Origin: Serpentinimonas barnesii
Lineage (GTDB): Bacteria; Pseudomonadota; Gammaproteobacteria; Burkholderiales; Burkholderiaceae_C
Length of the DNA: 64,000 nt
Reading direction: 5' to 3'
Assembly: GCF_000696225.1 (NCBI RefSeq)
Contig: NZ_BAWN01000003.1
Coordinates: 1-64,000 of the forward strand
The number at the start of each line of letters is the position of its first letter. The stretch's first letter is position 1. Below, one piece after another: positions 8,974-31,405 of this stretch. A model generated the notes under the pieces. The model was not told where the DNA came from. It worked only from the letters and a program-made list of their open reading frames with translations, and did not search any database. Position numbers and translations under genes: made by a program.

Positions 8974-8984
8974 GTTGGGGCTCC

Positions 8985-10361
8985 TTACAGCAGCACGCGG
9001 CGAAAATCGGCCAAGACTTGGCCCAAGTAGGCGTTGAAGCGCGCGGCCGCCGCGCCGTCGATCACGCGGTGGTCCCAAGTCAGGCTCAGGGGCAGCAGCA
9101 GGCGCGGCTCAAAGGCTTGGCCGTTCCAGACCGGGCTCATCTGGCTCTTGCACACACCCAAAATAGCCACTTCGGGCGCGTTGATGATGGGCGTAAAGTA
9201 GCGCCCGCCAATGCCGCCCAGGCTGGAGATGGTGAAGGTGGCACCGCTCATCTCGGTCGGGCTGAGCTTGCCGTCGCGGGCTTTTTTGGCCAGCTCGCTC
9301 ATTTCCTGGCTGATTTGCAGCAAGCCTTTTTGGTCGGCGTTTTTCAGCACCGGCACCATCAGGCCGTTGGGGGTGTCGGCGGCAAAGCCGATGTGCCAGT
9401 AGTTTTTGACGATCAGCGCATCGCCATCGAGGCTGCTGTTGAAGTCGGGGAATTTTTTCAGCGCCGCCACGCAGGCCTTGATCAAAAAGGCCAGCATGGT
9501 GACCTTGACGCCGGATTTTTCGTTTTCCTGGTTCAGGCGCAGCCGCAGCGCCTCGAGTTCGGTGATGTCGGCGTCGTCGTGGTTGGTAACGGCCGGGATC
9601 ATGACGGCGTTGCGCAGCAGGTTGGCGGCGCTGATTTTTTTGATCCGCCCCAGCTCCTTGCGCTCGATCGGGCCGAATTTGGCAAAGTCCACCTTGGGCC
9701 AGGGGATCAGGCCCAATTCACTGCCGGACCCACTACCCGCCCCGCCACCCGCGCCCGCGGCGGCCAAGGCCGCCCGGGCGGCTTGGGTGTGCTGCTGGCC
9801 GGCCATCACGGCGCGGCTAAAGGCTTGCACGTCGGCCAGCGTGATGCGCCCCTTGAGGCCGCTGCCGCTCACTTCGGCCAGCGGCACCCCGAGCTCGCGC
9901 GCAAACTTGCGCACCGAGGGGCTGGCGTGCGGCAGGCCGGGGGCACCTAGGGCGGGTGCAGGGGCCACGGCAGCACCCACGCCCACCACGCCTGTTCCCG
10001 CTCCCGCGCCATGTGCCAAAACCGCCGCAGCGGGCACCCCCGAAGGCGATGCAGCCGCCGTGGCAACTGGTGCCACCGAAGCCTCTGAGCCCCCAGCCTG
10101 GGCAGCAGCCGGAGCCGCAGCCCCCTCCACCTCCAAGTCCAGCAGCACCGAGCCGATGTTCACCTTGTCGCCCAAGGCCACCTTGAGCGCGCGCACCACA
10201 CCGGCGTGCGAGCAGGGAATCTCCATCGAGGCCTTGTCGGACTCGACCGTGATGAGCGACTGCTCTGGCGCCACGCGGTCGCCCACTTTGACCAGCAGCT
10301 CGATCACTGCCACGTCTTTGAAGTCGCCGATGTCGGGGACTTTTACTTCGATCACTGCCAT
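8985..10361 (-). CDS. aceF: Dihydrolipoamide acetyltransferase (E2) of pyruvate dehydrogenase
   Basis: E2 core enzyme of 458 residues that transfers acetyl groups from lipoamide to CoA. There is a single lipoyl domain at residues 1-80 (K43 in ESDKASMEI), then an Ala/Gly-rich linker, a peripheral subunit-binding domain ([20 protein letters not shown]) and the catalytic domain ending in [17 protein letters not shown] with the active-site His. Enterobacterial E2 usually has three lipoyl domains, so one is at the short end. Start ATG 10361 lies 20 bases after the aceE stop. The open frame upstream of it is out of frame with aceE and spurious. Confidence 0.95.
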
Positions 10362-13099: not shown

Positions 13100-13307
13100 G
13101 GGCAGTCTCCTGGTTGTAGGGGGCGGCGGTGTGCTCCAAGCCTAGGCAGCACCACTGGATTCATGGTGGCACAAGATTTCACCACCGTGTTTGAAGTGTG
13201 GCACAGTTTTTTCCAATTTTCAAGATGCAAATTAACTTTTTGTATTATGAAATATCAATTGATTTTCGACTCAAAAAACACCGGGTTTTCCCATAGACTT
13301 GAAGCAA
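13100..13307. promoter_or_regulatory. Divergent AT-rich intergenic region between aceE and the histidine kinase gene
   Basis: The 208-base spacer is far more AT-rich than its surroundings, especially 13190-13300, and must hold promoters for both directions. TGGCACA occurs twice, near 13168 and 13201. TATTAT near 13243 could be a -10 box for the kinase gene, but I see no convincing -35 at proper spacing. No terminator is visible. Confidence 0.5.
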
Positions 13308-15821
13308 ATGTCCAAATTTCGCTCCCTACTCTCCTTGCGCCCGCAATGGCGTTGGCCGGTGCGGCGCTGGCAGCGCTGGTGGCAGGGCTTAACCCCGGTC
13401 CATCAAGACCGGCTGGTGAGCGTCGTGCCCCTGATCTCGGTGCTGTTGTTTTTGGCGGCCATTGCCTCGGCTTTCACCTACTTTACGCAGCTCGAAGCGC
13501 AGCGCGAGCAACAAGAGGTGACGCGCGATGTCGAGTACGCGCAGCAGCGCTTGCGGCTGCGTTTGCTGGAGCCGCACGAGCCTCTGCAGCGCATGGCGCA
13601 GCAAATCGTGAACCAAGAGCTCGACCCCTTTCAGTTCAGCGCCACGGCCGAACTGCTGGCCGGGCGTTTTCCCGAATTGCTGGCGGTGAGCTGGCTCGAC
13701 GCGCAAAACCGTGTGGTGGCCACCCACGCGGCGGCGCTGGCGCCGGCCCAGCTCAACCGCAGCCCCGGGCAGCCGGTTTTAGATGAGGAAACCGGGGGCG
13801 CCTTGGGCGTGGCGCGTGAAATCATGCAGCCGCATTTCAGCCGTCCCTTGGGCGGTCTGGGGCCCGACGCGCGCTTGCTGCTGCTGCTGCCCCTGACGCA
13901 ACAAGGCCGCTACCAGGGCACCTTGCTGGTTGAGTACTCGCTCGAGCTGCTGCTGCGGCTGGGCGTGCCGGGCGACGTGCGCACCCGCTACGCCGTGGCC
14001 TTGATCGATCTGAGCGGCAACGTCGTGGCCGGCAGCGTGCACCAGTTTGAACCCGACGGCATTGCATTGCTGCCCTGGACCGGACAGCCGCGCAGCCACC
14101 AAATGGCGGTCGCGCCGGTGGGCCCGCATTTGCAACTGCGCGCCACCGGCTACCGCATCAGCCGCGATGCCGCCGGTGAAGGCTTCTTTTGGGTGGTTGG
14201 CTCGCTCAGCCTGCTCACCATCTGGATGCTGCTGACCAACCTGCGCATCACCCGGCGCCGGCTGCAAGCGCAACGCGCCTTGCAGACCGAAACGCTGTTT
14301 CGGCGCGCCATGGAAAACTCCATGCTCACCGGCATGCGCGCGCTCGACCTCAACGGCCGCATCACCTACGTCAACCCGGCTTTTTGCTCCATGACCGGCT
14401 GGAGCGAGTCCGACCTCGTGGGGGCGCAAGCGCCCTTTCCCTATTGGCCCGCCGCCGATGTGGACAAGCTGCACATTCGCTTGGAAGACGAGCTCAGCGG
14501 CCGCACCAACGCCGGGGGCTTTGAGATGCCGGTGCAGCGCAAAAATGGCAGCACGTTTTTTGCCCGCATGTACGTCTCGCCCCTGATCGACTCCAAAGGC
14601 CAACAAACCGGCTGGATGACCTCGATGACCGACATCAGCGAGCCCAAGCGCGTCCGCGAGGAACTGGGCGCCTCCTACCGGCGCTTCACCACCGTGCTCG
14701 ATACGCTGGACCAGGCGGTGTCGGTGGCGCCCCTGAACAGCACCGAGTTGCTGTTTGCCAACCGCATGTACCAGACCTGGTTCGGCTCCACCGCTGGCGG
14801 GCATCGGCAACTGATCCAGTTGAGCCAGAGCAGCGGCACGCCCGCGAGCCGCCCCGACGGCGAAGACCCGCAATCGGATGGGCTGGCCGGGCTGCCCACC
14901 GACTCCCTGTTTGAGGCCCATGCCAACCACGCCGAACTGTTTATCGAAACCCTGAACCAGTGGCTGGAGGTGCGTTCGCGCTACCTGACCTGGGTCGATG
15001 GCCGGCTGGTGCAGATGGTGATTGCCTCCGACATCACGGCGCGCCGGCGTGCCGAGCAGCAAGCCGCCTTGCAGCAAGAGCGCGCCGAGGCCGCCAGCCG
15101 CCTGATCACCATGGGCGAGATGGCCTCCAGCGTGGCGCACGAGCTTAACCAGCCCCTGACCGCCATCAGCAACTACAGCAGCGGCATGATTGCGCGCCTG
15201 CAGCAGCAGCAGATCAGCGAGGCCGAGCTGCTTGAGGTGCTGCAAAAAACCGCCAAGCAGGCGCAGCGGGCCGGCCAGATCATCCAGCGCATTCGCGCCT
15301 TCGTCAAACGCAGCGAACCCACCCCCACCCCGTCGGACGCGGCGCAGATGGTGGGCAATGCGGTGGAGCTGGCCGAGATCGACCTGCGGCGCCACCTGGT
15401 GCGCCTCAATACCTACGTGGCGGCGCGGCTGCCGCAACTGCTGGTGGACCCGATCCTGATCGAGCAGGTGCTGATCAACCTGCTCAAAAACGCGGGCGAA
15501 GCCATCATCCAGGCGCAGCGCCCGGTCGGGCAGCGCCAGGTGGAGCTGTGCGTCACGCCGCGCCACATCGAGGGGCTGCCGGTGGTGGAGTTCAGCGTGC
15601 GCGACAACGGCCGCGGCATCCCGCCCGAGCAACTCGAGCGCATCTACGAGGCCTTCTACAGCACCAAGGCCGAGGGCATGGGGATCGGGCTCAAGCTGTG
15701 CCGCTCGATCGTCGAATCGCACCACGGGCGGCTGCAGGCGCGCAACCTCTACAATGGGCAGGAAATCATGGGTTGCGAGTTCAGCTTTTGGATTCCCACG
15801 CTGACGGCCCTCAACCCCTGA
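13308..15821 (+). CDS. Membrane sensor histidine kinase with PAS domains
   Basis: An 837-residue sensor kinase. A membrane helix at about 38-60 and a second at about 292-312 enclose a ~230-residue extracytoplasmic sensor region. One PAS domain follows (ALDLNGRITYVNPAFCSMTG), then a second PAS-like region (about 455-560). The HisKA box is SVAHELNQPLTAISNYSS with phosphoacceptor H611. The ATPase domain has NLLKNAGEAI, DNGRGIP and GMGIGLKLCRSIVE. Architecture resembles FixL/DctB/TodS-type kinases. The ATG at 13308 was preferred over the in-frame TTG at 13299. The response regulator follows after 60 bases. The stimulus is unknown. Confidence 0.9.
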   Translation: MSKFRSLLSLRPQWRWPVRRWQRWWQGLTPVHQDRLVSVVPLISVLLFLAAIASAFTYFTQLEAQREQQEVTRDVEYAQQRLRLRLLEPHEPLQRMAQQIVNQELDPFQFSATAELLAGRFPELLAVSWLDAQNRVVATHAAALAPAQLNRSPGQPVLDEETGGALGVAREIMQPHFSRPLGGLGPDARLLLLLPLTQQGRYQGTLLVEYSLELLLRLGVPGDVRTRYAVALIDLSGNVVAGSVHQFEPDGIALLPWTGQPRSHQMAVAPVGPHLQLRATGYRISRDAAGEGFFWVVGSLSLLTIWMLLTNLRITRRRLQAQRALQTETLFRRAMENSMLTGMRALDLNGRITYVNPAFCSMTGWSESDLVGAQAPFPYWPAADVDKLHIRLEDELSGRTNAGGFEMPVQRKNGSTFFARMYVSPLIDSKGQQTGWMTSMTDISEPKRVREELGASYRRFTTVLDTLDQAVSVAPLNSTELLFANRMYQTWFGSTAGGHRQLIQLSQSSGTPASRPDGEDPQSDGLAGLPTDSLFEAHANHAELFIETLNQWLEVRSRYLTWVDGRLVQMVIASDITARRRAEQQAALQQERAEAASRLITMGEMASSVAHELNQPLTAISNYSSGMIARLQQQQISEAELLEVLQKTAKQAQRAGQIIQRIRAFVKRSEPTPTPSDAAQMVGNAVELAEIDLRRHLVRLNTYVAARLPQLLVDPILIEQVLINLLKNAGEAIIQAQRPVGQRQVELCVTPRHIEGLPVVEFSVRDNGRGIPPEQLERIYEAFYSTKAEGMGIGLKLCRSIVESHHGRLQARNLYNGQEIMGCEFSFWIPTLTALNP

Positions 15822-15881
15822 TGCCCCCAAGCCAGCGCCCTGCACAGGGCCGGGCTCACCGAGAGACAGAGAAGGCGACAA

Positions 15882-16505
15882 ATGAGTGTGATGGCAAAGC
15901 GCGGTTTGGTTTATGTGGTCGATGACGACGAAGCGGTGCGCGACTCCTTGCAGTGGCTGCTCGAAGGCAAAGACTACCGGGTGCGCTGCTTCGAATCGGC
16001 CGAAGCCTTTCTGAGCCGCTACGACCCGCGCGAAGTGGCGTGCCTGTTGGCCGACATCCGCATGGGCGGCATGACCGGCATGGAGCTGCAAGACCGGCTG
16101 CTGGAGCGCCACTCGCCGCTGCCGATCGTCTTTATCACCGGCCATGGCGATGTGCCGATGGCGGTGCAGACGATGAAAAAAGGCGCGCTCGATTTCATCC
16201 AAAAGCCCTTCAACGAGCCCCAGCTCATGGCCTTGGTCGATCGCATGCTGGAGGCTGCGCGCATCGCCTTTGCTGGCCACCAGCAGGCCGCCAACCGAGA
16301 GGCCCTGATGGCCAGGCTCACCGGGCGCGAATCGCAGGTGCTCGAGCGCATCGTGGCCGGTCGGCTCAACAAGCAGATCGCCGACGATCTGAGCATCAGC
16401 ATCAAAACGGTGGAGGCGCACCGCGCCAACATCATGGAAAAGCTGGGCACCAACACGGTCGCCGATTTGCTCAAAATTGCCCTTGGCCCCAGCGCCAAAC
16501 CCTGA
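15882..16505 (+). CDS. FixJ-like response regulator (receiver plus LuxR-type HTH)
   Basis: A 207-residue FixJ/NarL-type transcription factor. The receiver domain (about 8-125) has the acidic pocket DDDE, predicted phosphoacceptor D58 in [10 protein letters not shown], the switch Thr in FITGHGD and the conserved Lys in IQKPF. The LuxR-type helix-turn-helix is about 145-200 ([38 protein letters not shown]). It is the cognate partner of the kinase immediately upstream. An in-frame ATG at 15891 is an alternative start. Targets are not visible; the divergent aceEF-lpdA operon is an obvious candidate. Confidence 0.92.
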
Positions 16506-19728: not shown

Positions 19729-21018
19729 ATGAATTCCAGTCTTTGCTTCTTGTTGGCCGCTAAGCGCGCCGAGCTGACCGAATTGCAGCGGCTGGCGCAA
19801 AGCATTGCGCTGGCCCGCAGCACCGCCGCGCTGGTGCACGAATTGCAACGCGAACGCGGACTCTCCAACCTGAGCGTGCTCCAAGCCAGCCTGGGGCAGG
19901 CGCCCCTTGAAGCGCAGCTGCAACAGCAAACCCAAGGCACCGACCAGTGGGTGGAGCAATGGCTGCTGGAGTCCGCAGCCCTGATCAACGCCCCATCGCC
20001 GCACGCGGCACAGCTCCTGAGCCGGGTGGCCTATGCGTTGCAAGGGCTCGATGCGCTGGCGCTGCTGCGCTCGCGCGTCGCGGCCAAGGCACTAGGCACC
20101 CACAGCCTGTCAGCCGATTACGCGCGTCTGATCGCCAGCTTGCTGGCGGTGGTGTTCGAAGCCGCCGACCGCGCCAGCGCCCCCGAACTGCTGCGCCCCC
20201 TGGTGGCGCTGTTCAACCTTATGCAGGGCAAAGAGTGGGCCGGCCAAGAGCGCGCTGCGGGCGCCGCCCTGTTCGCCAGCGCGCAGGTGCAAGCGCACGA
20301 ACAGGCGCACCTGATCGATCTGATCGAGGCGCAGCAGCGTTGCCTGGAAGTGTTTGAGTCCTTTGCCAGCGCGGCGCTGCTGCAATTTTGGCAGGAGCGC
20401 CAGCGCCTGCAGCCTCTGGGCGAGCGCAGCCGCTTGCGCCGCTTGCTGCTGCAAGCACCGGCCGGTGGGGCGCTGGAGCCGACACAGAGCGGGGCCTGGT
20501 TTGCCTGCTGCAGCCAGTGCATGGATGAAATGCGCCCGGTTGAAGACCAGTTAACGCAATTTTTGGTGGATCAAGCCGGTGCCTGCATGGCATTGGTGGC
20601 GGCTGAAATCGAACAACTCGAACAGCGCCAGTCCGGCAACTGGGGTGCGGGTGGAGGCCTAGGCAGCGACACGCAGCGCGGCAGCGGCTTTTTCGACGCC
20701 GCATCCGCCGCACCCCCCACCCTCCAGTCCGCACCCACAGGGCTGGCGGGTGGGCTGGAAAAATCGGTGCTCGACCTGGTGCAAGAACAGGGCCAGCGGC
20801 TGCAAGCCGCTGCCGCCGAAATTGAGACGTTGCGCGCCAGCCTGAACGAGCGAAAACTCATCGAGCGCGCCAAGGGCTTGCTGATGGCGCACCAGCAGCT
20901 CGATGAGCCAGCCGCACACAAAACCCTGCGCGAGCTGGCCATGAACCAGAACAAGCGCATGGTCGATGTGGCCGAGGCGGTGCTCTCGATGAGCCACCTG
21001 CTTGCACCACGGCGGTGA
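19729..21018 (+). CDS. nasR: Nitrate/nitrite-responsive antiterminator (NIT domain plus ANTAR)
   Basis: A 429-residue protein with NasR architecture. The N-terminal all-helical NIT (nitrate/nitrite-sensing) domain, about 25-260, has the typical [17 protein letters not shown] segment. A linker follows, then a C-terminal coiled coil and ANTAR RNA-binding domain (about 355-425: [40 protein letters not shown]). In Klebsiella NasR, nitrate or nitrite binding lets ANTAR bind a two-hairpin leader RNA and prevent termination. Matching hairpins and a terminator lie just downstream (21140-21235), before the nrtA-nirB-nasA operon, which strongly supports this role. Confidence 0.92.
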
Positions 21019-21044
21019 CCGCCTTTGCCCGATTTTGGTGCACC
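21002..21044. promoter_or_regulatory. Possible NtrC-type activator sites upstream of the nas promoter
   Basis: Two GCACC/GGTGC-type palindromes precede the sigma-54 promoter. TTGCACCA...CGGTGACC at 21002-21020 has a good left half and an imperfect right half and overlaps the nasR stop. GGTGCACC at 21037-21044 is a short palindrome. They lie roughly 90-130 bases upstream of the predicted start, a normal distance for NtrC enhancers. Neither is a full match to the consensus. Confidence 0.4.
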
Positions 21045-21103: not shown

Positions 21104-21120
21104 TTGGCACGAAAACTGCT
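21104..21120 (+). promoter_or_regulatory. Sigma-54 (-24/-12) promoter of the nas operon
   Basis: TTGGCACGAAAACTGCT has the invariant GG at -24 (21106-21107) and GC at -12 (21118-21119) with the required ten bases between them. It matches TGGCAC-N5-TTGC with one mismatch (CTGC). Transcription should begin near 21131, nine bases before the first leader hairpin. A sigma-54 promoter implies an activator such as NtrC and therefore nitrogen-limitation control. Confidence 0.82.
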
Positions 21121-21139
21121 TGAGTGATGACAAGGGTAA

Positions 21140-21192
21140 GTGCCAATGGCGGCACGAACCCGGCTCGCAGAGCAATACGGACAACGGCGTCC
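21140..21192 (+). promoter_or_regulatory. ANTAR-target leader RNA: two hexaloop hairpins (P1, P2)
   Basis: P1 is GTGCC-AATGGC-GGCAC (21140-21155), a 5-bp stem. P2 is GGAC-AACGGC-GTCC (21179-21192), a 4-bp stem. Each has a six-base loop with A at position 1 and G at position 4, the signature recognised by ANTAR proteins. The loop and 3' arm of P2 are also the 5' arm of the terminator at 21183-21235, so P2 and the terminator exclude each other. The NIT-ANTAR protein encoded upstream is the expected ligand. Confidence 0.85.
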
Positions 21193-21235
21193 CTCCCACC
21201 CCGCTTTCAAGGCGGACCTAGGAGGACGCCGTTTT
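21183..21235 (+). terminator. Conditional intrinsic terminator in the nas leader
   Basis: AACGGCGTCC (21183-21192) pairs perfectly with GGACGCCGTT (21224-21233). A further TCC/GGA extension is possible across one bulged C, and the 3' arm runs into TTTT. It lies 46 bases before the nrtA start, so default termination would block the whole operon. The 5' arm is shared with hairpin P2. Confidence 0.85.
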
Positions 21236-21280
21236 CCATTTGCTGCCGCGCTTCGATTGTTCATTGCTCTAGGAGTAGTC

Positions 21281-22666
21281 ATGCCCCCGTTCGACCTCAG
21301 CCAGACCGAATCCAGCACGGCTGGCACACCAACCCCTAGCGGCCACAGCCCGGCCGCCTGCCACGCGCCCACTGCCGCCGACGCCGCCGCAAGCGCCACC
21401 GCCAGCGCCGTCACCCAGCCCGGGCGCCGCAGCGCGCTGCGCCAGGGCGCCACGCTCGCCGGGGCAGCCCTGCTGGCCCATGCCGGCACCGGCCTGCTGC
21501 CCGGCCTGCGCTCCGTCGTCCATGCCCAAGGCTCCGACCGGCCCGAGATCGAGGAGGTGCGCATCGGCTTCATCCCGCTCACCGACAGCGCCTCCGTCAT
21601 CATGGCCTCGGTGCTGGAGCTGGACCGCAAGCATGGGGTGCGCATCGTCCTGTCCAAGGAAGCCAGTTGGGCCGGTCTGCGCGACAAGCTGCTCAACGGC
21701 GAACTGCACATGGCGCATTCGCTCTATGGACTGATCTACGGGCTGCAACTGGGGCTGGGCGGGCCGCGCACCGATATGTCGGTGCTGATGACGCTCAACC
21801 GCAACGGCCAGGGCATGACGCTGAGCCGCCAACTGGCCGAGCGCGGCGCGGTGGACGTGGGCACGCTGGCGCGGCTGATGGCGCGCGAGCGGCGCGACTA
21901 CACCTTTGCCCAGACCTTCCCGACCGGCACCCACGCCATGTGGCTGTACTACTGGCTGGCCAGCGCCGGCGTCAACGCGCTGCGCGACACCAAGGTCATC
22001 ACTGTGCCGCCGCCGCAGATGGTGGCCAATATGCGCGTCGGCAATATGGACGGATTCTGCGTTGGCGAACCGTGGAACCACCGCGCCATCGTGGACCGCA
22101 TCGGCATCACGGCCGCCAATACGCAGGACGTGTGGCCCGATCATCCCGAGAAAGTGCTGGGCGCGCGCACCGACTTCGTGCGCCGCCACCCCAACACCGC
22201 GCGCGCCGTCATGATGGCGGTGCTCGAAGCCAGCCGCTGGATCGACGCCGGGCTGCAAAACAAAATGCAGATGGCCGAAACCATCGCCGCGCGGCCCTTT
22301 GTTAACACCAGCGTCGATGTGATCCGCGACCGCATTCTGGGGCGCTACCAAAACGGCCTCGGGCGCACCTGGGACGACCCCAAGCACATGAAGTTTTTCG
22401 ACGGCGGCGCGGTGAACTTCCCCTACCTGTCGGACGGCATGTGGTTCCTGACCCAGTTCAAACGCTGGGGCCTGCTGCGCGAGCACCCCAACTACCTGCA
22501 AGTGGCGCAGCAGATCAACCAGATCGAGCTCTACCGCCAGGCCGCCACGCGGCTCAACATCAGCCTGCCGCGCGACCCCCTGCGCAGCAGCACCCTGATG
22601 GATGGCGTGGTCTGGAACGGCCGCGACCCGGCGCGCTACGCCGACAGCTTTGCCATCAAGGCCTAA
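21281..22666 (+). CDS. nrtA: ABC nitrate transporter, substrate-binding protein
   Basis: NrtA/NasF-type binding protein of 461 residues that captures nitrate (possibly nitrite) for the NrtB-NrtD transporter. After a long Ala/Ser/Thr-rich leader, GRRSALRQGATLAGAALLAHAG (split around residues 48-69) has the twin arginine and hydrophobic core of a Tat signal. The mature domain begins IEEVRIGFIPLTDSASVIMA, the standard NrtA/CmpA start, and contains FPTGTHAMWLYYWLASAGVN and GFCVGEPWNHRAI, conserved nitrate-binding segments. Start ATG 21281 follows AGGAG. First gene of the operon controlled by the leader. Confidence 0.92.
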   Translation: MPPFDLSQTESSTAGTPTPSGHSPAACHAPTAADAAASATASAVTQPGRRSALRQGATLAGAALLAHAGTGLLPGLRSVVHAQGSDRPEIEEVRIGFIPLTDSASVIMASVLELDRKHGVRIVLSKEASWAGLRDKLLNGELHMAHSLYGLIYGLQLGLGGPRTDMSVLMTLNRNGQGMTLSRQLAERGAVDVGTLARLMARERRDYTFAQTFPTGTHAMWLYYWLASAGVNALRDTKVITVPPPQMVANMRVGNMDGFCVGEPWNHRAIVDRIGITAANTQDVWPDHPEKVLGARTDFVRRHPNTARAVMMAVLEASRWIDAGLQNKMQMAETIAARPFVNTSVDVIRDRILGRYQNGLGRTWDDPKHMKFFDGGAVNFPYLSDGMWFLTQFKRWGLLREHPNYLQVAQQINQIELYRQAATRLNISLPRDPLRSSTLMDGVVWNGRDPARYADSFAIKA

Positions 22667-22678
22667 GGAGCACCCACC

Positions 22679-23626
22679 ATGGTCAGCGCCGTTTTTCACT
22701 CACCCCGCGACGGGCAGGGCCCCGCCACTCCCACAACGGGCGGCGCGGGCGCCCTACCGGCCCAACCCGCCCGGGCCCACGCCCCAGCCCACAGCAGCCC
22801 AGCGCGCAGCCACCCACCGCGCAGCCGCTCCGCGCGGCGCTTCGAAGCCAGCGAATGGCTGCAACAGGGGCTGCCACCGCTGTTTGGCTTGCTGCTGCTG
22901 ATCGGGCTGTGGCACCTGGCCGCGACCAGCGGCGAAGGCCAGTTCCCGACCCCGTCGGCCACCTGGAGCGCGGCGCTGGTGTTGTTTGCCGACCCCTTCT
23001 TCGTCAACGGCCCCAACGACGTCGGGATCGGCTGGCAGGTGCTCAACTCGCTTGAGCGCGTCGGGCTGGGCTTTGGGCTGGCGGCGCTGGTGGGCATTCC
23101 GCTGGGCTTTCTGATCGGCCGCTCGGTCTTTGCCGGGCGCATGTGCGCGCCGCTGATCAGCCTGTTCAAGCCGGTTTCGCCCTTGGCCTGGTTGCCGATC
23201 GGGCTGCTGGTGTTCCAGGGCACCGAACCGGCGGCGATCTGGACCATCTTCATCTGCTCGATCTGGCCCATGATCATCAACACCGCCGTCGGGGTGCAGC
23301 GGGTGCCGCAGGACTACCTCAACGTGGCGCGGGTGCTCAACCTGAGCGAGTGGACCATCCTGACCAAGATTTTGCTGCCCGCCGTGCTGCCCTACGTGCT
23401 CACCGGGGTGCGGCTGGCCGTGGGCACCGCCTGGCTGGTGATCGTGGCGGCCGAAATGCTCACCGGCGGCGTGGGCATCGGTTTCTGGATCTGGGACGAG
23501 TGGAACAACCTCAACATCACGCACATCATCGTGGCGATTTTCGTCATCGGCCTGGTCGGGCTGCTGCTGGAGTGGGCCCTGGTGCGCATCGCCCGCGCCT
23601 TTACTTTCGAGGAAGTCAAATCATGA
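22679..23626 (+). CDS. nrtB: ABC nitrate transporter, permease
   Basis: NrtB-type permease, 315 residues, of the BPD transporter family. A Pro/Ala-rich N-terminal extension of about 50 residues precedes the first membrane helix (PPLFGLLLLIGLWHLA). The signature NSLERVGLGFGLAALVGIPL and the EAA-like loop LNLSEWTILTKILLPAVLPY, the contact site for the ATPase, are both clear. LAVGTAWLVIVAAEMLTGGV is typical of nitrate/taurine permeases. It starts 12 bases after nrtA and overlaps nrtD by four bases. Inner membrane. Confidence 0.92.
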   Translation: MVSAVFHSPRDGQGPATPTTGGAGALPAQPARAHAPAHSSPARSHPPRSRSARRFEASEWLQQGLPPLFGLLLLIGLWHLAATSGEGQFPTPSATWSAALVLFADPFFVNGPNDVGIGWQVLNSLERVGLGFGLAALVGIPLGFLIGRSVFAGRMCAPLISLFKPVSPLAWLPIGLLVFQGTEPAAIWTIFICSIWPMIINTAVGVQRVPQDYLNVARVLNLSEWTILTKILLPAVLPYVLTGVRLAVGTAWLVIVAAEMLTGGVGIGFWIWDEWNNLNITHIIVAIFVIGLVGLLLEWALVRIARAFTFEEVKS

Positions 23627-24453
23627 ACGAGAGCCACTACATCCAGATCGAAGGCGTGGTGCAGCGCTTTAAAACCCGGCAAGGCGAGTTTGAGGCGCTG
23701 CGCCAGATCGACCTGCGCATCGCCAAAGGCGAGTTCGTGGCCCTGATCGGGCACTCGGGTTGCGGCAAATCCACCCTGCTCAACCTGATCGCCGGCCTGA
23801 GCTCCCCCACCGAAGGCCTGCTGCTGTGCGCCGGGCGCGAGATCGCCGGCCCGGGGCCAGAGCGTGCCGTGGTGTTTCAGAACCACTCCTTGCTGCCGTG
23901 GCTAACCTGCTTTGAGAACGTACACCTCGGCGTCGAGCGCGTTTTCGGCTCGGGCTCGCGCAGCGCCGGGGCCAAGTCGGAGCGCAAAGCCGAACTGGCG
24001 GCGCGCACCCATGCCGCGCTGGAACTGGTGGGCCTGAGCCACGCCGCCCACAAGCGCCCGGGCGAAATCAGCGGTGGCATGAAGCAGCGCGTGGGCATTG
24101 CGCGCGCGCTGGCGATGGAGCCCAAGGTGCTGCTGCTCGACGAGCCCTTCGGCGCGCTCGACGCCCTGACCCGCGCCAAGCTGCAAGACGAACTGCTCGA
24201 CATCGTGGCGCGCACCCACAGCACCGTGGTGATGGTGACGCACGATGTCGATGAGGCGGTGCTGCTGGCCGACCGCATCGTGATGCTCACCAACGGCCCC
24301 TCGGCCACCATCGGCGAGGTGCTGGCGGTGCCGCTGGCGCGCCCACGGCGGCGCGTGGAACTGTCGGAAAACCCGGCTTACCTGCAATGCCGCAAGGCGG
24401 TGATGGACTTTTTGTACACCCGCCAGGCACACGTGGAAAAAGAGGCCGCATGA
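23623..24453 (+). CDS. nrtD: ABC nitrate transporter, ATP-binding protein
   Basis: ABC ATPase of 276 residues, NrtD/NasD type, energising nitrate uptake. Walker A is GHSGCGKST, the Q-loop is VVFQNHSLLPWL, the signature is ISGGMKQRVGIARAL (SGG in place of SGGQ, as in many nitrate/sulfonate ATPases), Walker B is VLLLDEPFGALD, and the switch His is in VMVTHDVDEAV. I placed the start at ATG 23623, which overlaps the nrtB stop; the longer upstream open frame is a shadow of nrtB. It overlaps the nirB start. Confidence 0.93.
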   Translation: MNESHYIQIEGVVQRFKTRQGEFEALRQIDLRIAKGEFVALIGHSGCGKSTLLNLIAGLSSPTEGLLLCAGREIAGPGPERAVVFQNHSLLPWLTCFENVHLGVERVFGSGSRSAGAKSERKAELAARTHAALELVGLSHAAHKRPGEISGGMKQRVGIARALAMEPKVLLLDEPFGALDALTRAKLQDELLDIVARTHSTVVMVTHDVDEAVLLADRIVMLTNGPSATIGEVLAVPLARPRRRVELSENPAYLQCRKAVMDFLYTRQAHVEKEAA

Positions 24454-27014
24454 TGCAACACACTGCCCCGCCCGGCTCAGAGTCCGCCCGCAACGCCCCT
24501 GCCGCCATCCCCCAAACAGCCAGCCAACGGCAAAAGCTGGTGCTGGTGGGCAACGGCATGGCCGGGGTGCGCACGCTCGAAGAGCTGCTCAAGCTCGCGC
24601 CCGATCTGTACGACATCACCGTCTTTGGCACCGAGCCGCACCCCAACTACAACCGCATCCTGCTCTCGCCGGTGCTGGCCGGCGAGCAGACGCCGGACCA
24701 AATCGTCCTGAACGACTGGGACTGGTACCGCCAGCATGGCATCACGCTGCACGCCGGCTGGAGCGTGACCGAGGTGGACCGCACCCGGCGCCTGGTCCAT
24801 GCCAGCGGGCCTGACGGGGCCACGCAGTCGGCCCCCTACGACCGGCTGATTCTGGCCACCGGCTCCAACGCCTTCATGCTGCCCATTCCCGGCCGGGAGC
24901 TGCCCGGTGTGCTCGCCTACCGCGACCTGGCCGACACCCAGGCCATGATCGCGGCCGCCACGCAATACCCGCAAGCGGTGGTGATTGGCGGCGGGCTGCT
25001 GGGGCTGGAAGCGGCCAACGGGCTGATGAAGCGCGGCATGGACGTGACCGTGGTGCACGTGGCCCCGTGGCTGATGGAGCGCCAGCTCGACCAGCGCGCC
25101 GCCGAGCTGTTGCAGCGCTCGCTGCAAGCGCGCGGCCTCAAATTCCTGCTCGGGGCCCAGACCGAGGCCCTGCTGGCCGGTGCCGATGGCCGCGTGGCCG
25201 CCGTGCGCTTCAAGGCCGGCAGCGCGCCCGAGCCGGAAATCCCGGCCCAGCTCGTGGTGATGGCGGTGGGCATCCGCCCCAACACCGCGCTGGCCGAGCG
25301 CATGCGGCTGCACGTGCAGCGCGGCATCGTGGTCTCGGACACGCTGCAAACCGTGACCGACCCGCGCATCTACGCCGTGGGCGAATGCGCCGCGCACCGG
25401 GGCGTGGCCTACGGTCTGGTGGCCCCGCTGTTCGAGCAGGGCAAGGTGCTGGCCAACCACCTGGCGCAGCACGGCATCGCCCGCTACAGCGGCAGCGTGA
25501 CCTCGACCAAGCTCAAGGTCACGGGCATCGACCTGTTCAGCGCCGGCAACTACCTGGGCGGCCCCGGCTGCGAGGAAATCGTGCTCAGCGACCCGACCGC
25601 CCCCAGCGGCGGCGTCTATAAAAAACTGGTGCTGCAAGACGACAAACTGGTCGGCGCCTGCCTCTATGGCGACACGGTCGATGGCAGTTGGTATTTCAAG
25701 CTGCTGCGCGCGGGCCGCCCGGTGGCCGACATCCGCGACAAGCTCATGTTTGGCGAGAGCAATCTGGGCGATGCCGGGCACCAGGGGCACCAAAAGGCGG
25801 CCCAAATGGCCGACAGCGACGAGGTTTGCGGCTGCAACGGCGTCAGCAAAGGGGCCATCTGCAAGGCCATCAAGCGCCAGGGCCTGTTCACCCTCGACGA
25901 AGTGCGCAAACACACCAAGGCCAGCGCCAGTTGCGGCAGTTGCACCGGCCTGGTGGAGCAAATCCTGATGTTCAGCGCCGGTGGCGACTACTCGGCCACG
26001 CCCCAGAAAAAAGCCCTGTGCGGCTGCACCGAGCACAGCCACCAGCAGGTGCGCGACGCCATCCGCGAGCGCAAGCTGCTGCGCATTGCTGACGTGTTCC
26101 AGGCGCTGGACTGGCGCAACCCGAGCGGCTGCGCCACCTGCCGCCCGGCCCTCAACTACTACCTCATCAGCACCTGGCCCAAAGAGGCCCGCGACGACCC
26201 GCAAAGCCGCTTCATCAACGAGCGCAGCCACGCCAACATCCAGAAAGACGGCACCTATTCGGTGATCCCGCGCATGTGGGGCGGCGAGACCACGGCCGAC
26301 GAGCTGCGCCGCATCGCCAACGCGGTGGACAAGTACCAAATCCCCACCGTCAAGGTCACCGGCGGCCAGCGCATCGACTTGCTGGGCGTAAAAAAAGAGG
26401 ACCTGATCAGCGTCTGGAAAGACATCGGCATGCCCAGCGGCCACGCCTACGCCAAGGCGCTGCGCACGGTCAAAACCTGCGTCGGCTCCGAGTGGTGCCG
26501 CATGGGTACGCAAGACAGCACCCAGATGGGCAAAGACCTGGAGCGCGCCTTCTTTGGCATGTACGCGCCGCACAAGGTCAAGTTTGCCGTCAGCGGCTGC
26601 CCGCGCAACTGCGCCGAGGCCGGCATCAAGGACGTGGGCATCATCGGCGTCGAGAGCGGCTGGGAGATGCACATCGCTGGCAATGGTGGCATCAAGACCG
26701 AAGTGGCGCACTTTTTTTGCAAGCTCAAAAGCGCTGCCGAGGTGCTGGAAACCACCGGCGCCTTCATGCAGCTCTACCGGCTCGAAGGCTGGTATCTGGA
26801 GCGCACGGTGCACTTCGTGAGCCGGGTCGGGCTGGACTACGTGAAGCAGCGCATCCTCGACGACCCGGCCGGCCGCCAGGCGCTGTGGCAGCAGTTGCAG
26901 TTTGCGCTCGACGGCGAGCCCGACCCTTGGTTTGAACACGAGCGGGCGCAAGTCGATCTGCGCCAGTTTCAGGCCCTGAACGCAGAGATGGCCCCAAGCC
27001 GGGTGCCGGCCTGA
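24450..27014 (+). CDS. nirB: Assimilatory nitrite reductase [NAD(P)H], large subunit
   Basis: NirB/NasB (854 residues) reduces nitrite to ammonium with NAD(P)H. The order is an FAD/NAD(P)H-binding N-terminal half (LVLVGNGMAGVRTLEELL; VVIGGGLLGLEAANGLMKRG), two BFD-like [2Fe-2S] regions with CGCN...CGSC and CGC...CATC cysteines, and a C-terminal nitrite/sulfite reductase domain. The siroheme-[4Fe-4S] ligands are C677 and C683 (CX5C) plus C717 and C721 (CX3C in GCPRNC). ATG 24450 overlaps nrtD; ATG 24453 is equally possible. The operon also supplies the siroheme precursor enzyme (cobA). Confidence 0.95.
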   Translation: MMQHTAPPGSESARNAPAAIPQTASQRQKLVLVGNGMAGVRTLEELLKLAPDLYDITVFGTEPHPNYNRILLSPVLAGEQTPDQIVLNDWDWYRQHGITLHAGWSVTEVDRTRRLVHASGPDGATQSAPYDRLILATGSNAFMLPIPGRELPGVLAYRDLADTQAMIAAATQYPQAVVIGGGLLGLEAANGLMKRGMDVTVVHVAPWLMERQLDQRAAELLQRSLQARGLKFLLGAQTEALLAGADGRVAAVRFKAGSAPEPEIPAQLVVMAVGIRPNTALAERMRLHVQRGIVVSDTLQTVTDPRIYAVGECAAHRGVAYGLVAPLFEQGKVLANHLAQHGIARYSGSVTSTKLKVTGIDLFSAGNYLGGPGCEEIVLSDPTAPSGGVYKKLVLQDDKLVGACLYGDTVDGSWYFKLLRAGRPVADIRDKLMFGESNLGDAGHQGHQKAAQMADSDEVCGCNGVSKGAICKAIKRQGLFTLDEVRKHTKASASCGSCTGLVEQILMFSAGGDYSATPQKKALCGCTEHSHQQVRDAIRERKLLRIADVFQALDWRNPSGCATCRPALNYYLISTWPKEARDDPQSRFINERSHANIQKDGTYSVIPRMWGGETTADELRRIANAVDKYQIPTVKVTGGQRIDLLGVKKEDLISVWKDIGMPSGHAYAKALRTVKTCVGSEWCRMGTQDSTQMGKDLERAFFGMYAPHKVKFAVSGCPRNCAEAGIKDVGIIGVESGWEMHIAGNGGIKTEVAHFFCKLKSAAEVLETTGAFMQLYRLEGWYLERTVHFVSRVGLDYVKQRILDDPAGRQALWQQLQFALDGEPDPWFEHERAQVDLRQFQALNAEMAPSRVPA

Positions 27015-27058: not shown

Positions 27059-27487
27059 ATGACCCACTGGATACCCGTTTGCACCGTAGAAGACATCCCC
27101 GCCTTGGGTGCGCGCCGCGTGGCGCGCGAGCACGGGCTGGACGTGGCCGTGTTCAAGGCCGCCGACCAGCGGCTCTTTGCCCTGCTCGACCGCTGCCCGC
27201 ACAAGGGCGGGCCGCTGAGCCAGGGCATCGTGTTTGGGCACAGCGTGGCGTGCCCGCTGCACAACTGGAACATCGCCCTCGACAGCGGCCAGGCCGCCGC
27301 ACCCGACCAAGGTCAGACCCCGCGCTTCGCCCTCAAGGTTGAGCACGGACTGGTGTACCTGGACGCCCACGAGCTCGACACGCTGGCTACCGAGGCCAAG
27401 CGGCCCCTGGCCGGCCCGGCGGCCCGTCTCGATTGCTCTGGGCCGGCCCGCCGTGCTTGCCCCGGCGCGGCCAGCGGTGCCTGCTAA
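27059..27487 (+). CDS. nirD: Nitrite reductase small subunit (Rieske-type)
   Basis: NirD/NasE (142 residues), the Rieske-like small subunit of NADH nitrite reductase. Cluster ligand motifs are CPHKGG and CPLHNW, so unlike the E. coli NirD fold, which has lost its cluster, this one probably holds a [2Fe-2S] centre. WIPVCTVEDIPALGAR is the family N-terminus. The C-terminal ~35 residues (about 108-142) form an Ala/Cys-rich tail beyond the usual domain. It is preceded by a GGAGG ribosome site and lies between nirB and nasA. Confidence 0.9.
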   Translation: MTHWIPVCTVEDIPALGARRVAREHGLDVAVFKAADQRLFALLDRCPHKGGPLSQGIVFGHSVACPLHNWNIALDSGQAAAPDQGQTPRFALKVEHGLVYLDAHELDTLATEAKRPLAGPAARLDCSGPARRACPGAASGAC

Positions 27488-27497
27488 GCGCAAGCCC

Positions 27498-30416
27498 ATG
27501 GCCACCACCCGTTCCACCTGCCCCTATTGCGGCGTCGGCTGCGGCGTGCTGATCGAGCACGAGGGCGGCCAGATCACCGGCGTGCGCGGCGACCCCGAGC
27601 ACCCGGCCAATTTCGGGCGCTTGTGCAGCAAAGGCTCGACCCTGCACCTGAGCGCCCGCCCCGCCTTGGCGCAAGCCACCCGGCTGCTGCATCCGCAGTG
27701 GCGCAGCGCGCGCGGCGGCCCCACCCAGGCGCTGGACTGGAAGCAGGCGCTCGATCTGGCGGCCAGCCGCATCGCCCAAACCGTGCAGCAGCACGGCCCC
27801 GACGCCGTGGGCGTGTACGTCAGCGGCCAGTTGCTGACCGAGGACTACTACGTCTTCAACAAGCTGGTCAAAGGGGTGCTGGGCAGCAACCAGATCGACT
27901 CCAATTCGCGCCTGTGCATGAGCAGCGCCGTGGCCGGCTACAAACTCACCCTGGGGGCCGACGCGCCGCCGCCCTGCTACGAGGACCTGGGGCTGGCGCA
28001 AACGCTGTTCATCATCGGCAGCAACACGGCCTGGGCGCACCCGGTGCTGTTCAGGCGCATCGAAGACGCGCGCGCGGCGCGGCCGGATCTGCGCCTGATC
28101 GTCGCCGACCCGCGCCGCACCGACACCGCCGCCAGCGCCGACCTGCACCTACCGCTGCAACCCGGCACCGACGTGGCGCTGCTGCACGGCCTGCTGCACA
28201 TCATGCTCTGGGAGGGCTGGCTCGACCCGGCTTACATCGCCGCCCACACCAGCGGCTTCGAGGCCCTGAAGGCGATCTTGCGCGAGCACACCCCCGCCCA
28301 CACCGCGCACCTGTGTGGCCTGCAACAGGCCGACCTCTACACCGCGGCGCGCTGGATCGCCGGCCTCGACAGCCCCGCCCAAGATGGGCCCCCGGCCCCG
28401 ACTGCCCCGCTTTTTAGCGGGCGCGATGGCCGGCTGCGCCGCCCCACCCTGAGCCTGTACTGCCAGGGTCTGAACCAGAGCAGCAACGGCAGCGCCAACA
28501 ACGCGGCCCTGATCCACCTGCACCTGGCCACCGGGCAGATTGGCCACCCCGGTGCCGGCCCCCTGAGCCTGACCGGCCAGCCCAACGCCATGGGCGGGCG
28601 CGAAGTGGGCGCCATGGCCAACCTGCTCAGCGCCCACCGCGATCTGGCCAACCCCACGCACCGGGCCGAAGTGGCGCAACTGTGGGGGGTGCCCAGCGTA
28701 CCCGGGCAGCCGGGGCGCAGCGCGGTCCAGATGTTCCAGGCGGCGGCCGAGGGCGAAGTCAAGCTGCTGTGGATCGCCTGCACCAACCCGGCCCAAAGCC
28801 TGCCCGACCAGAGCACGGTGCGGCGGGCGCTGGAGCGGGCCGAATTCGTCATCGTGCAAGAGGCTTTTGCCCACACCGCCAGCACCGCCTACGCCGACCT
28901 GCTGCTGCCCGCCACCACCTGGGGCGAAAAGGAAGGCACCGTCAGCAACAGCGAGCGGTGCATCAGCCGCGTGCGCCGCGCCGTGCCGGCCCCGCTGCAC
29001 CCCGACCATGCGCTCGACGGCCCCCGGCCCGACTGGGTCATCGCGCGCGATGTGGCCCAGCGCCTAGAGGCCCTGCTGCACCCGCAGCCCGATGCACCGC
29101 GGCGCATCCACTTCGACTACCCCACGCCCGAGGCGGTGTGGAACGAACACCGCCAGAGCACCCAGGGCCGCGACCTCGACATCAGCGGCCTCAGCTATGC
29201 CCTGCTCGACACCGCCGGGCCGCAGCAGTGGCCCATGCCCGAGGGCCAAAGCCGGGGCCTGGCGCGCCTGTACGCCGACGGCCGTTTTCCCACTTCCGAC
29301 GGCAAGGCGCGTTTTGTGGCCCTGCCCTACCGGGCGCCAGCCGAGGCACGCGACGCCAGCTACCCGCTGGCCTTGAACACCGGCCGGCTGCGCGACCAGT
29401 GGCACGGCATGAGCCGCACCGGCCTGCTGGGCCGCCTGTTTGGCCATGCACCGGAGCCGGTGCTGCACATGCACCCGCAGGACATGGCGCGGCGCCGGCT
29501 GCGCGAAGGGGAGCTGGTCAGCGTGCAAAGCGCGCGCGGGCGCATCGTGCTGCCGCTGCAAGCCGCGCCCGATCTGGGGCTGGGGCAGGTGTATTTGCCC
29601 ATGCACTGGGGTTCGGATTGTTTAAGCGGGCGCAGCCCCGAAGGCTTGGCGCTGCTGGGCGTCAATGCCCTGACCACACCGGCCTGCTGCCCCACATCCC
29701 AGCAACCCGAACTCAAACACGCCGCCGTGCGGGTCGAACCGGCGCACCTGCCTTGGACGCTCATCGCCATGGCCTGGTTGCCCGAAGGCGAAGCGGCGCA
29801 AACCCGGGCCTGGCTGTCGGGGCAACTGAGCCAGTTCGACTTTGCCACCTGCGTGCCCTTTGGCCGCCACGAGGAACAAGGGCGCACAGGCGTGCTGCTG
29901 CGCGCCGCCTGCCTGCAAGCCCCCGACCCCGCACTGCTCGACGCCGTGGCCGCGCGCCTAGGCCTGAACACCCCCAACACCCTGTGCTACCGCGACCCCC
30001 GGCGCGGCCAGATGCGGGCGCTGCGCCTGCTGCGCCGCAGCCCCGAGTCCGAGGCCCAACTCGATGCCCTGCTGCTGGCCAGCGACGTGCGCTCGGCCGC
30101 CTGGCTTGAGGTGCTGCTGCAGGAAGAGCGCCCCACCTCGGCCAGCGGACAACAACTGCTGCTGCCCAGCGCGGCCGCGCCCACGGCCAGCGGGCCATCC
30201 AGCCGCAGCCCCCAAGTCTGCGCCTGCCTCGATGTGAGCGAGCAGGCCATCACCCTGCACCTAGCCCGCAGCCCGGGCAGCCCCAGCCAGCGGCTGGCGC
30301 AGCTGCAAAGCACGCTGCAATGCGGCACCCAGTGCGGCTCCTGCATCCCGCAGCTCAAGCGCCTGTTACAAAGCGTGGCCGCGCCCGCGATGGCTGCCAA
30401 CACGCAAATCGCTTAA
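27498..30416 (+). CDS. nasA: Assimilatory nitrate reductase catalytic subunit with C-terminal BFD domain
   Basis: Molybdopterin enzyme (972 residues) that reduces nitrate to nitrite. The N-terminal [4Fe-4S] ligands are C8, C11, C15 and C43 (CPYCGVGC...LCSKG), followed by the MopB domain (SNSRLCMSSAVAGYK; YCQGLNQSSNGSANNAALIH; ATTWGEKEGTVSNSERCISR). A molybdopterin-dinucleotide-binding domain follows (LNTGRLRDQWHGMSRTG). The C-terminus carries a BFD-like [2Fe-2S] module (VCACLDVS...CGTQCGSC), as in Klebsiella NasA. Start ATG 27498 lies just after the nirD stop; the upstream open frame is a nirD shadow. Confidence 0.95.
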   Translation: MATTRSTCPYCGVGCGVLIEHEGGQITGVRGDPEHPANFGRLCSKGSTLHLSARPALAQATRLLHPQWRSARGGPTQALDWKQALDLAASRIAQTVQQHGPDAVGVYVSGQLLTEDYYVFNKLVKGVLGSNQIDSNSRLCMSSAVAGYKLTLGADAPPPCYEDLGLAQTLFIIGSNTAWAHPVLFRRIEDARAARPDLRLIVADPRRTDTAASADLHLPLQPGTDVALLHGLLHIMLWEGWLDPAYIAAHTSGFEALKAILREHTPAHTAHLCGLQQADLYTAARWIAGLDSPAQDGPPAPTAPLFSGRDGRLRRPTLSLYCQGLNQSSNGSANNAALIHLHLATGQIGHPGAGPLSLTGQPNAMGGREVGAMANLLSAHRDLANPTHRAEVAQLWGVPSVPGQPGRSAVQMFQAAAEGEVKLLWIACTNPAQSLPDQSTVRRALERAEFVIVQEAFAHTASTAYADLLLPATTWGEKEGTVSNSERCISRVRRAVPAPLHPDHALDGPRPDWVIARDVAQRLEALLHPQPDAPRRIHFDYPTPEAVWNEHRQSTQGRDLDISGLSYALLDTAGPQQWPMPEGQSRGLARLYADGRFPTSDGKARFVALPYRAPAEARDASYPLALNTGRLRDQWHGMSRTGLLGRLFGHAPEPVLHMHPQDMARRRLREGELVSVQSARGRIVLPLQAAPDLGLGQVYLPMHWGSDCLSGRSPEGLALLGVNALTTPACCPTSQQPELKHAAVRVEPAHLPWTLIAMAWLPEGEAAQTRAWLSGQLSQFDFATCVPFGRHEEQGRTGVLLRAACLQAPDPALLDAVAARLGLNTPNTLCYRDPRRGQMRALRLLRRSPESEAQLDALLLASDVRSAAWLEVLLQEERPTSASGQQLLLPSAAAPTASGPSSRSPQVCACLDVSEQAITLHLARSPGSPSQRLAQLQSTLQCGTQCGSCIPQLKRLLQSVAAPAMAANTQIA

Positions 30417-30454
30417 TAGCGAAAAGTCATGACTACGCTGGCACAATCGACCAA

Positions 30455-31405
30455 ATGAGCATCAAAGAGCACCTAAAAAAGATAGGACGCGGCAAAGACG
30501 GAGCCCGCGCCCTTAGCCGTGCGCAGGCCGCCGACCTGCTCGGGCAGGTGCTCGATGGGGCCGTGAGCGATCTCGAAATCGGCGCCTTCTGCATCGCCAT
30601 GCGCGTAAAAGGCGAGACCGCCGAAGAAATGGCCGGCTTCCTCGACGCGCTGGAGCCGCGCCTTCAGCGCTGGAGCGCTCCCGCCCACAGCCCCTTGCCC
30701 AGCGTGGTGCTGCCCAGCTACAACGGCGCACGCAAGCTGCCGGTGCTCACCCCGTTGCTGGCGGGTTTGCTGGCACAAACGGGCCTCGCGGTGCTCTGGC
30801 ACGGCTGCGCCACCGAAGACGCGCGCGCCCACCCCGAGGCCATCCTGCCCGCGCTCGATGCGGCCGGCTTGCTCAGCCCCGAGCTGCAGCCCGGCCGCGT
30901 CTGCTGGGTGCCCACACATCGCCTGCAGCCGGGACTGCAACGCCTGCTGGACGTGCGCCGCAGCGTGGGCTTGCGCAACAGCGCGCACAGCCTTGTCAAG
31001 CTCATGAACCCGGTCGCTGGGCCGGCCCTGTTGCTGAGCAGCTACACCCACAGCGAATACCTGCACAGCATGAGCGCCACGCTGGCGCTGACCGGAGCCA
31101 ACGCCCTGCTGCTGCGCGGCACCGAAGGCGAGCCCGTGGCCGACGCGCGGCGCTGCCCGGCCATGGACGCCTTTGTCGCCGGGCACAGTTGGCGCATCCA
31201 GGAAGCCCCGAGCGGCCCACTGGCCCCTGTGGCCGATTTGCCCACGCCCGATGCCGAGGCCACCCGGAACTGGACCGCCGCCGCCTTGCAGGGCCAGCGC
31301 GCCATTCCCGAGCCGATCGCAACCCAAGTGCGCCACACGCTGGAACTGGCGCGCCGGATCGCCTCCGGCCAAATCCCCCCACCGCCCCATCCGAGCACCC
31401 CATGA
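30455..31405 (+). CDS. ybiB: YbiB-like protein (TrpD2 / anthranilate phosphoribosyltransferase-like fold)
   Basis: A 316-residue member of the nucleoside-phosphorylase/TrpD-like family (YbiB). The N-terminal helical domain GRGKDGARALSRAQAADLLG and VSDLEIGAFCIAMRVKGETA is diagnostic, and the C-terminal domain has LPSYNGARKLPVLTPLLAGL and GLRNSAHSLVKLMNP. E. coli YbiB is reported to bind nucleic acid and lacks clear transferase activity, so its role here is unknown. Its place between nasA and cobA, with ATGA overlap to cobA, suggests a link to nitrate assimilation. ATG 30455 starts the family sequence. Confidence 0.85.
   Translation: MSIKEHLKKIGRGKDGARALSRAQAADLLGQVLDGAVSDLEIGAFCIAMRVKGETAEEMAGFLDALEPRLQRWSAPAHSPLPSVVLPSYNGARKLPVLTPLLAGLLAQTGLAVLWHGCATEDARAHPEAILPALDAAGLLSPELQPGRVCWVPTHRLQPGLQRLLDVRRSVGLRNSAHSLVKLMNPVAGPALLLSSYTHSEYLHSMSATLALTGANALLLRGTEGEPVADARRCPAMDAFVAGHSWRIQEAPSGPLAPVADLPTPDAEATRNWTAAALQGQRAIPEPIATQVRHTLELARRIASGQIPPPPHPSTP

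Follow-up and report, generated by a model that had tools for sequence, protein, structure and literature searches.

A complete NasR-type antitermination leader, predicted by sequence analysis, precedes a betaproteobacterial nitrate-use operon

In Klebsiella oxytoca, the nitrate assimilation operon is regulated by NasR, a protein of the NIT-ANTAR type (PMC3369931). The nasF leader contains two hairpins whose six-base loops carry A at position 1 and G at position 4 (A1/G4) and are closed by a C:G pair (PMC7496416), and the second hairpin overlaps a terminator (PMC3369931, PMC7496416). The same dual A1/G4 hexaloop antiterminator logic has been described for EutV and the eut leaders of Enterococcus faecalis, where signal and type of regulator are different and the linker between the two hairpins, P1 and P2, measures 5–12 nt (PMC3369931). 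In Pseudomonas, NalA combines a sigma-54 promoter, NtrC and ANTAR antitermination ahead of nirBD; the regulator named there is NasT together with NasS, and not a NIT-ANTAR protein (PMC12830290). ANTAR RNAs ahead of nitrate/nitrite transporters and in Burkholderia have been reported (PMC3369931), sigma-54 promoters have been predicted for genes of ANTAR proteins, mainly in beta- and gammaproteobacteria (PMC12316311), and the control of nitrate assimilation has been attributed to NtrBC plus NasR and extended to Azoarcus olearius (PMC8467165). For betaproteobacteria, control by ANTAR proteins or NasR has therefore already been stated or predicted in print.

A locus of this kind was analysed in a stretch of 64 kb from Serpentinimonas barnesii (hereafter the window). 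Positions 21104–21235, in front of a betaproteobacterial nitrate-use operon, add one more complete member to a type of switch that is already known; they do not represent a new kind. With K. oxytoca it shares the NIT-ANTAR regulator, the two C:G-closed A1/G4 hexaloops and the overlap of the second hairpin with a terminator, and with the eut leaders the dual-hexaloop logic. With NalA it shares a predicted sigma-54 promoter, putative NtrC sites and an ANTAR-type leader ahead of nirBD; in contrast to NalA, the adjacent regulator is a NIT-ANTAR protein.

The nasR-like gene (19729–21018, plus strand), identified by Pfam, PDB and genome scan, codes for 429 amino acids. As the preliminary description had stated, it lies immediately upstream: its stop at 21018 is followed by a spacer of 85 nt and then by the promoter element. 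The Pfam domains NIT (nitrate/nitrite sensing, 4.4e-43) and ANTAR (RNA binding, 4.7e-20) both occur in this one protein, and its best match among solved structures is NasR (PDB 4akk, 1.4e-39), extending over both domains. The kinship to K. oxytoca NasR includes the residues E175/R176 and K341, whose roles were taken from PMC7496416; given an inferred offset of 27 residues in the solved chain, E174/R175 and the lysine of the motif ERKLIERAK align with them. The genome, which is rated 100% complete and consists of 94 contigs, contains no second ANTAR match, so that the partner of the leader can be assigned without a choice between candidates. At E 1e-20, relatives of the protein were found in 18 of the 399 sampled genomes of the order, the own genome counted, and they also exist in Tepidimonas, Comamonas and enteric genera. 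In both other members of the genus that were examined, NIT matches lie in frames of 448 and 690 amino acids.

The gene content places the NIT-ANTAR gene at a nitrate assimilation operon, the first six genes of which lie on the plus strand. The first one (21281–22666, ATG at 21281) codes for an ABC transporter binding protein (Pfam NMT1_2, 6e-91), which is of the NrtA/NasF type by context. It is followed by a nitrate ABC transporter permease (22679–23626; TIGR01183, 4.5e-73), the corresponding ATPase (23599–24453; TIGR01184, 1.8e-99), and the large and small subunits of nitrite reductase, nirB (24450–27014; TIGR02374, 1.4e-266) and nirD (27059–27487; TIGR02378, 1e-23), each of these four matches being above its cut-off. 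Next comes a molybdopterin oxidoreductase with a C-terminal Fer2_BFD domain (27504–30416; Pfam). The NCBIfam models Fdh, NasA and NasC all match this product below their cut-offs; it is probably the assimilatory nitrate reductase. A gene for a YbiB-like protein (30395–31405; NF006005, 1.7e-101) sits between it and a gene for a cobA-type methyltransferase. Elsewhere in the window, at 13299–16505, a PAS histidine kinase is followed by a LuxR-type response regulator.

The promoter element TTGGCACGAAAACTGCT (21104–21120, plus strand) has the exact GG-N10-GC spacing that had been described previously, with GG at 21106–21107 and GC at 21118–21119. It agrees with the -24/-12 (sigma-54) consensus in 12 of 13 positions and is conserved across the aligned leaders; the transcript would be expected to start near 21131. 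Within the 64 kb, this element is the sole match without mismatch to the pattern TTGGCACG-N5-TGCT. No match has one mismatch, and with two mismatches the number is at chance level (16 in all versus 12.9 expected). The genome has one match to Sigma54_DBD (RpoN). It further contains an NtrC-like activator preceded by the frame of an NtrB-like kinase, and this pair shares contig and strand with a glnA-like start (names by reading, for the pair of its domains).

Two putative NtrC sites on the plus strand, which like the linker hairpin treated below were absent from the preliminary description, lie ahead of the promoter. The first, TGCACC-N5-GGTGAC (21003–21019), overlaps the end of nasR and has two mismatches to TGCACC-N5-GGTGCA; the second, TGCCCG-N5-GGTGCA (21026–21042), was found by the same pattern search. 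Their centres lie about 120 and 97 bases ahead of the expected start. NtrC-like sites within the window are at chance level (9 found, 9.35 expected). Their enrichment upstream of leaders was determined with TGCAC-N7-GTGCA, which we take to be the pattern of such sites, and at most two mismatches in 24 of 27 leaders, the near copies L024, L025 and L038 having been dropped. A total of 31 sites was observed versus 4.8 expected, with a maximum of 11 in 200 shuffles. Of the 24 leaders, 21 carry sites in the 200 nt that precede the -24 element; none was found in this interval for L006, which belongs to the same genus, L042 and L052. By their sequence features, the GG-N10-GC element and the upstream activator sites thus correspond to a sigma-54/NtrC promoter.

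The RNA downstream of the expected start was predicted to form three hairpins and, alternatively to the last of them, a terminator, all on the plus strand. P1 (21134–21161), which is seen in the fold and in covariation, consists of the core GUGCC-AAUGGC-GGCAC (21140–21155) and a lower stem GGGU/ACCC. In the interval between P1 and P2, the fold contains the linker hairpin GCUC-GCA-GAGC (21163–21173). P2, the putative antiterminator element, is GGAC-AACGGC-GUCC (21179–21192). P1 and P2 thus both have a stem of 3 bp or more below an A1/G4 hexaloop, as is characteristic of ANTAR dual-hexaloop RNAs, and both loops had been recognized earlier. The intrinsic terminator (21183–21235), which excludes P2, pairs 21183–21192 with 21224–21233, is lengthened by UCC/GGA across a bulged C, and encloses an inner hairpin of 6 bp; four U (21232–21235) form its U tract. 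Its arm occupies the loop and the 3' arm of P2, exactly as had been proposed, but the stem comprises 13 bp in the fold and not the 10 bp given before.

The terminator (21183–21240, -29.0 kcal/mol) is far stronger than P2, which has -4.0 kcal/mol alone. Folds of the truncated leader contain P2 at 21194, whereas at 21230 it has been displaced. The fold of 21131–21240 has an energy of -54.9 kcal/mol (z -6.3), and none of 200 shuffles was as good. A simple terminator scan, which admitted loops of 3–8 nt and required 5 T in 8, reported nothing here. Pairs of C:G-closed A1/G4 hexaloop hairpins are at chance level when considered alone (one in the window versus a mean of 1.37 in 60 shuffles). The combination of such a pair with an overlapping terminator arm was found once in the window, both strands included, and not in the 60 shuffles. 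From the four base pairs of P2, it had been concluded that the switch may depend strongly on protein binding. Their number was confirmed; however, 26 of 29 aligned leaders have all four pairs and the other three have three, so that a weak P2 is typical of the class and not a special weakness of this switch.

Among the 17 other NIT-ANTAR genes sampled in the order, 11 have the leader directly downstream (L050–L053, L055, L056, L060, L061, L063, L065, L066). No leader was found directly downstream of five (L054, L057, L058, L062, L064), and in L059 a P2-like hairpin whose loop starts with G is present but P1 is not evident. The leader also occurs behind nasR in enterics, and is thus conserved behind nasR-like genes in beta- and gammaproteobacteria. 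In L059 and L061, the NIT-ANTAR gene stands, by reading, ahead of an apparent formate/nitrite transporter gene and not of an ABC transporter. Three Comamonas loci contain a second sigma-54-like element with dual hairpin and terminator arm (L023, ~8885–9015; L024, ~8894–9025; L025, ~8870–9000), which lies ~3.4 kb downstream of the nasR leader.

Not all leaders entered the alignment. L048, L070, L071, L075, L079 and L081 were dropped (three because of misalignment, two because of a displaced promoter end, and one because of a long gap), and the long-linker leaders L060, L061, L063 and L066 and the near copy L024 were left out of the models. At most 12 of the 27 loci with relatives from Tepidimonas, Comamonas and enterics were used, the rest being mostly near copies or partial matches. 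L031 and L051, for whose promoter and P2, respectively, the leader-finder patterns were too strict, were included from separate reading. In the resulting 29 leaders, A1 and G4 are invariant in both loops, patterns asking for such loops having helped to pick the leaders. The covariation of P1 and P2 together in these 29 is 0.490, compared to 0.161 in shuffled alignments (0/500 reached it). A separate analysis of P1, which was chosen in each leader partly by stem length, gave 0.709 compared to 0.241 (0/500); two-sided changes affect seven of its eight pairs, a count that 43 of 500 shuffles matched. For P2, such changes occur in three of four pairs, in one or two leaders each, and 25–27 of the 29 leaders keep the commonest pair.

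A covariance model built from 26 leaders of other genera, that is, excluding the own genus, scored the site with 59 bits; the next match in the window had 11. In a search of the own genome with a leader model, the best three of the further matches were read, ahead of five weaker ones. A second match (C75:80277–80341, L115, 31.2 bits) comprises a -24/-12 element and one A1/G4 hairpin just before a start codon; it has neither P2 nor terminator and is therefore not counted as a second switch. Of the two matches with 20.6 bits each, C82 is a sigma-54-like element that precedes a gene resembling glnA (name by reading), and C80 is situated inside a long open frame.

The homology to NasR, the operon content, the conservation of the leader, its covariation and the leave-genus-out model support the earlier view that the locus follows the logic of Klebsiella nasF, as far as sequence comparison can tell. 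We are confident that the site serves an assimilatory nitrate operon as its leader, with a sigma-54/NtrC start and a terminator that would be relieved under nitrate/nitrite by NasR from the adjacent gene. Under nitrogen limitation, NtrC bound to the upstream sites would activate the sigma-54 polymerase, which would start near 21131. The nascent RNA is computed to fold P1, then the linker hairpin and then P2. If nitrate and nitrite are missing, the terminator would displace the weak P2 according to the computed folds, and transcription would presumably stop near 21235. If either is present, NasR would bind the A1/G4 hexaloops via its ANTAR domain and keep P2 closed. By analogy with K. oxytoca NasR and E. 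faecalis EutV, the polymerase would then continue into nrtABC, nirBD and the gene for the nitrate reductase. The points that we count against this nitrate switch are the tract of only four U, the silence of the terminator scan, the 23-nt spacing of P1 and P2, the chance level of NtrC-like sites within the window, and the six of 17 NIT-ANTAR genes without a proper leader directly downstream.

It is very unlikely that the terminator serves only to end transcription of nasR, with control of the operon residing solely in the promoter. Its position 3' of nasR and the short U tract would fit such a role, but the terminator is located downstream of the nas promoter element, so that nas transcripts would be cut too, and the conserved and covarying loops and stems of P1 and P2 in 29 leaders would be superfluous for a plain terminator.

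The leader type is found behind genes for two kinds of regulator. At E≤1e-5, a cut-off of our own choice, leaders were found in 33 of 60 genomes, the own one included; 32 of the 33 have an ANTAR match compared to 6 of the 27 genomes without leader, counts that are not independent because the genomes are related. At E 0.01, the number of genomes with leader rose to 36; among the additional ones, G010 has an ANTAR match, whereas G003 and G040 have none. The neighbours of 30 of the 50 leader matches were surveyed: eight leaders follow a NIT-ANTAR gene, 17 an ANTAR frame lacking similarity to the NIT domain of the window, and five have no adjacent ANTAR. The 17 non-NIT frames, which comprise 208–295 amino acids and in one case 470, are taken as putative NasT type. 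Such a neighbour lies upstream in 17 of the 25 cases in which an ANTAR gene adjoins the leader, and the leader type is therefore compatible with a non-NIT partner. Control of the present leader by a NasT/NasS-type response-regulator ANTAR instead of the adjacent NIT-ANTAR protein is nevertheless highly improbable, the latter being the sole ANTAR match in a genome of 94 contigs that is rated 100% complete.

The two groups differ in the loop of P2. It reads AACGGC in all eight leaders with NIT upstream, which include three species of one genus, and in none of the 17 with non-NIT upstream. As a strict code for the partner, position 3 of this loop fails: the NIT leaders L053, L060, L061, L063, L065 and L066 and the seven enteric ones have AAAGGC. 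Furthermore, G429 and G026 have leaders with AACGGC and no adjacent ANTAR, and the sole ANTAR match of G026 is in a frame of 208 amino acids, too short for a NIT-ANTAR protein. The mark may simply reflect leaders travelling with their regulators. In four leaders with non-NIT ANTAR upstream (L128 in G006, L131 in G037, L138 in G014, L146 in G030), an extra 5' hairpin with A1/G4 loop brings the number of hexaloops to three; in the case of G030, folding favours a longer stem with a smaller loop for this hairpin.

Two Rfam families aligned with the site over their full length. P11 (RF00625), which presumably is NalA, reached 32.8 bits (gathering cut-off 70), and narK RNA (RF03032) reached 22.6 bits (cut-off 43.2). 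That the element is a small RNA of the P11 type acting in trans is hardly conceivable in spite of the sub-threshold match, as it lies directly ahead of the nitrate operon and the NalA leader of the nirBD operon is described as a NasT-controlled cis leader (PMC12830290). The consensus of narK RNA, which is named after another gene, consists by reading of a -24/-12 promoter, P1 and P2, like the nitrate-operon leader studied here. Its model gave 17 matches in related genomes (L067–L083), none over the family cut-off, which are sigma-54 plus ANTAR-type leaders; ten of them (L067–L069, L071–L074, L076, L077, L080) are followed by a frame that resembles by eye a nitrate-transport binding protein. 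This suggests that narK RNA combines a sigma-54 promoter with an ANTAR leader. In the literature collection that was searched, no paper on this RNA was found; it reportedly came from a motif survey of 2017.

The linker comprises 23 nt from the P1 core, compared to the 5–12 nt of eut leaders; in the constrained fold, 6 of these nt remain unpaired outside the helices. For EutV, induction dropped drastically when the linker was changed to 3 or 14 nt (PMC3369931), and addition of 20 nt abolished antitermination (PMC8934654). Counted from the P1 core, the linkers of 20 beta leaders range from 9 to 133 nt; 12 of them measure 21–29 nt, and a separate linker hairpin was predicted in most of the tested beta leaders with linkers of this length. 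In contrast, the seven enteric leaders have an extended P1 ending 0–3 nt before P2. In this comparison with the enteric relatives, P1 is shorter here and a separate hairpin is added. No simple rule covers L060, L063 and L066: their linkers measure 133, 63 and 49 nt, and the constrained fold leaves 19–37 nt unpaired.

The effective linker length was rejected as a statistic: shuffled linkers of beta leaders also leave few nucleotides unpaired (means 1.8 to 7.4 nt), and only the folding energy discriminates. Its mean z is -1.88 in 18 beta leaders, three of them from one genus, based on base shuffles and with the P1 extension included. Isolated linker segments gave p<0.05 in 7 of 12 cases (Fisher 4e-8), values that are biased because the segment ends were picked from predicted folds. 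For the own site p was 0.058, for L005 0.085 and for L052 0.086; the segments of L023 and L065 gave no support for a hairpin in isolated folding. The hairpin of the own site recurs in other genera. In such a folding model, a folded linker may be one way to reconcile the 23-nt spacing with the EutV results. We tentatively propose, as a generalization that is rather unlikely to hold in full, that betaproteobacterial NasR leaders form a three-helix variant: a separate hairpin within a linker of ~21–29 nt would keep P1 and P2 spatially close, the same sigma-54 leader would be served by NIT-ANTAR or non-NIT ANTAR proteins in related genera, and base 3 of the P2 loop (C versus A, G or T) would partly mark the partner within this leader family.

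The locus thus appears to be an ordinary, complete switch, whose function we infer, with a mildly interesting variant in spacing. All components of the Klebsiella nas logic are recognizable in it, here in a lineage of betaproteobacteria. If the three-helix reading is true, ANTAR antitermination would need spatial rather than nucleotide spacing. The leaders with longer, folded linkers offer natural variants on which the spacing rule in current models of ANTAR antitermination (PMC8934654) can be tested.
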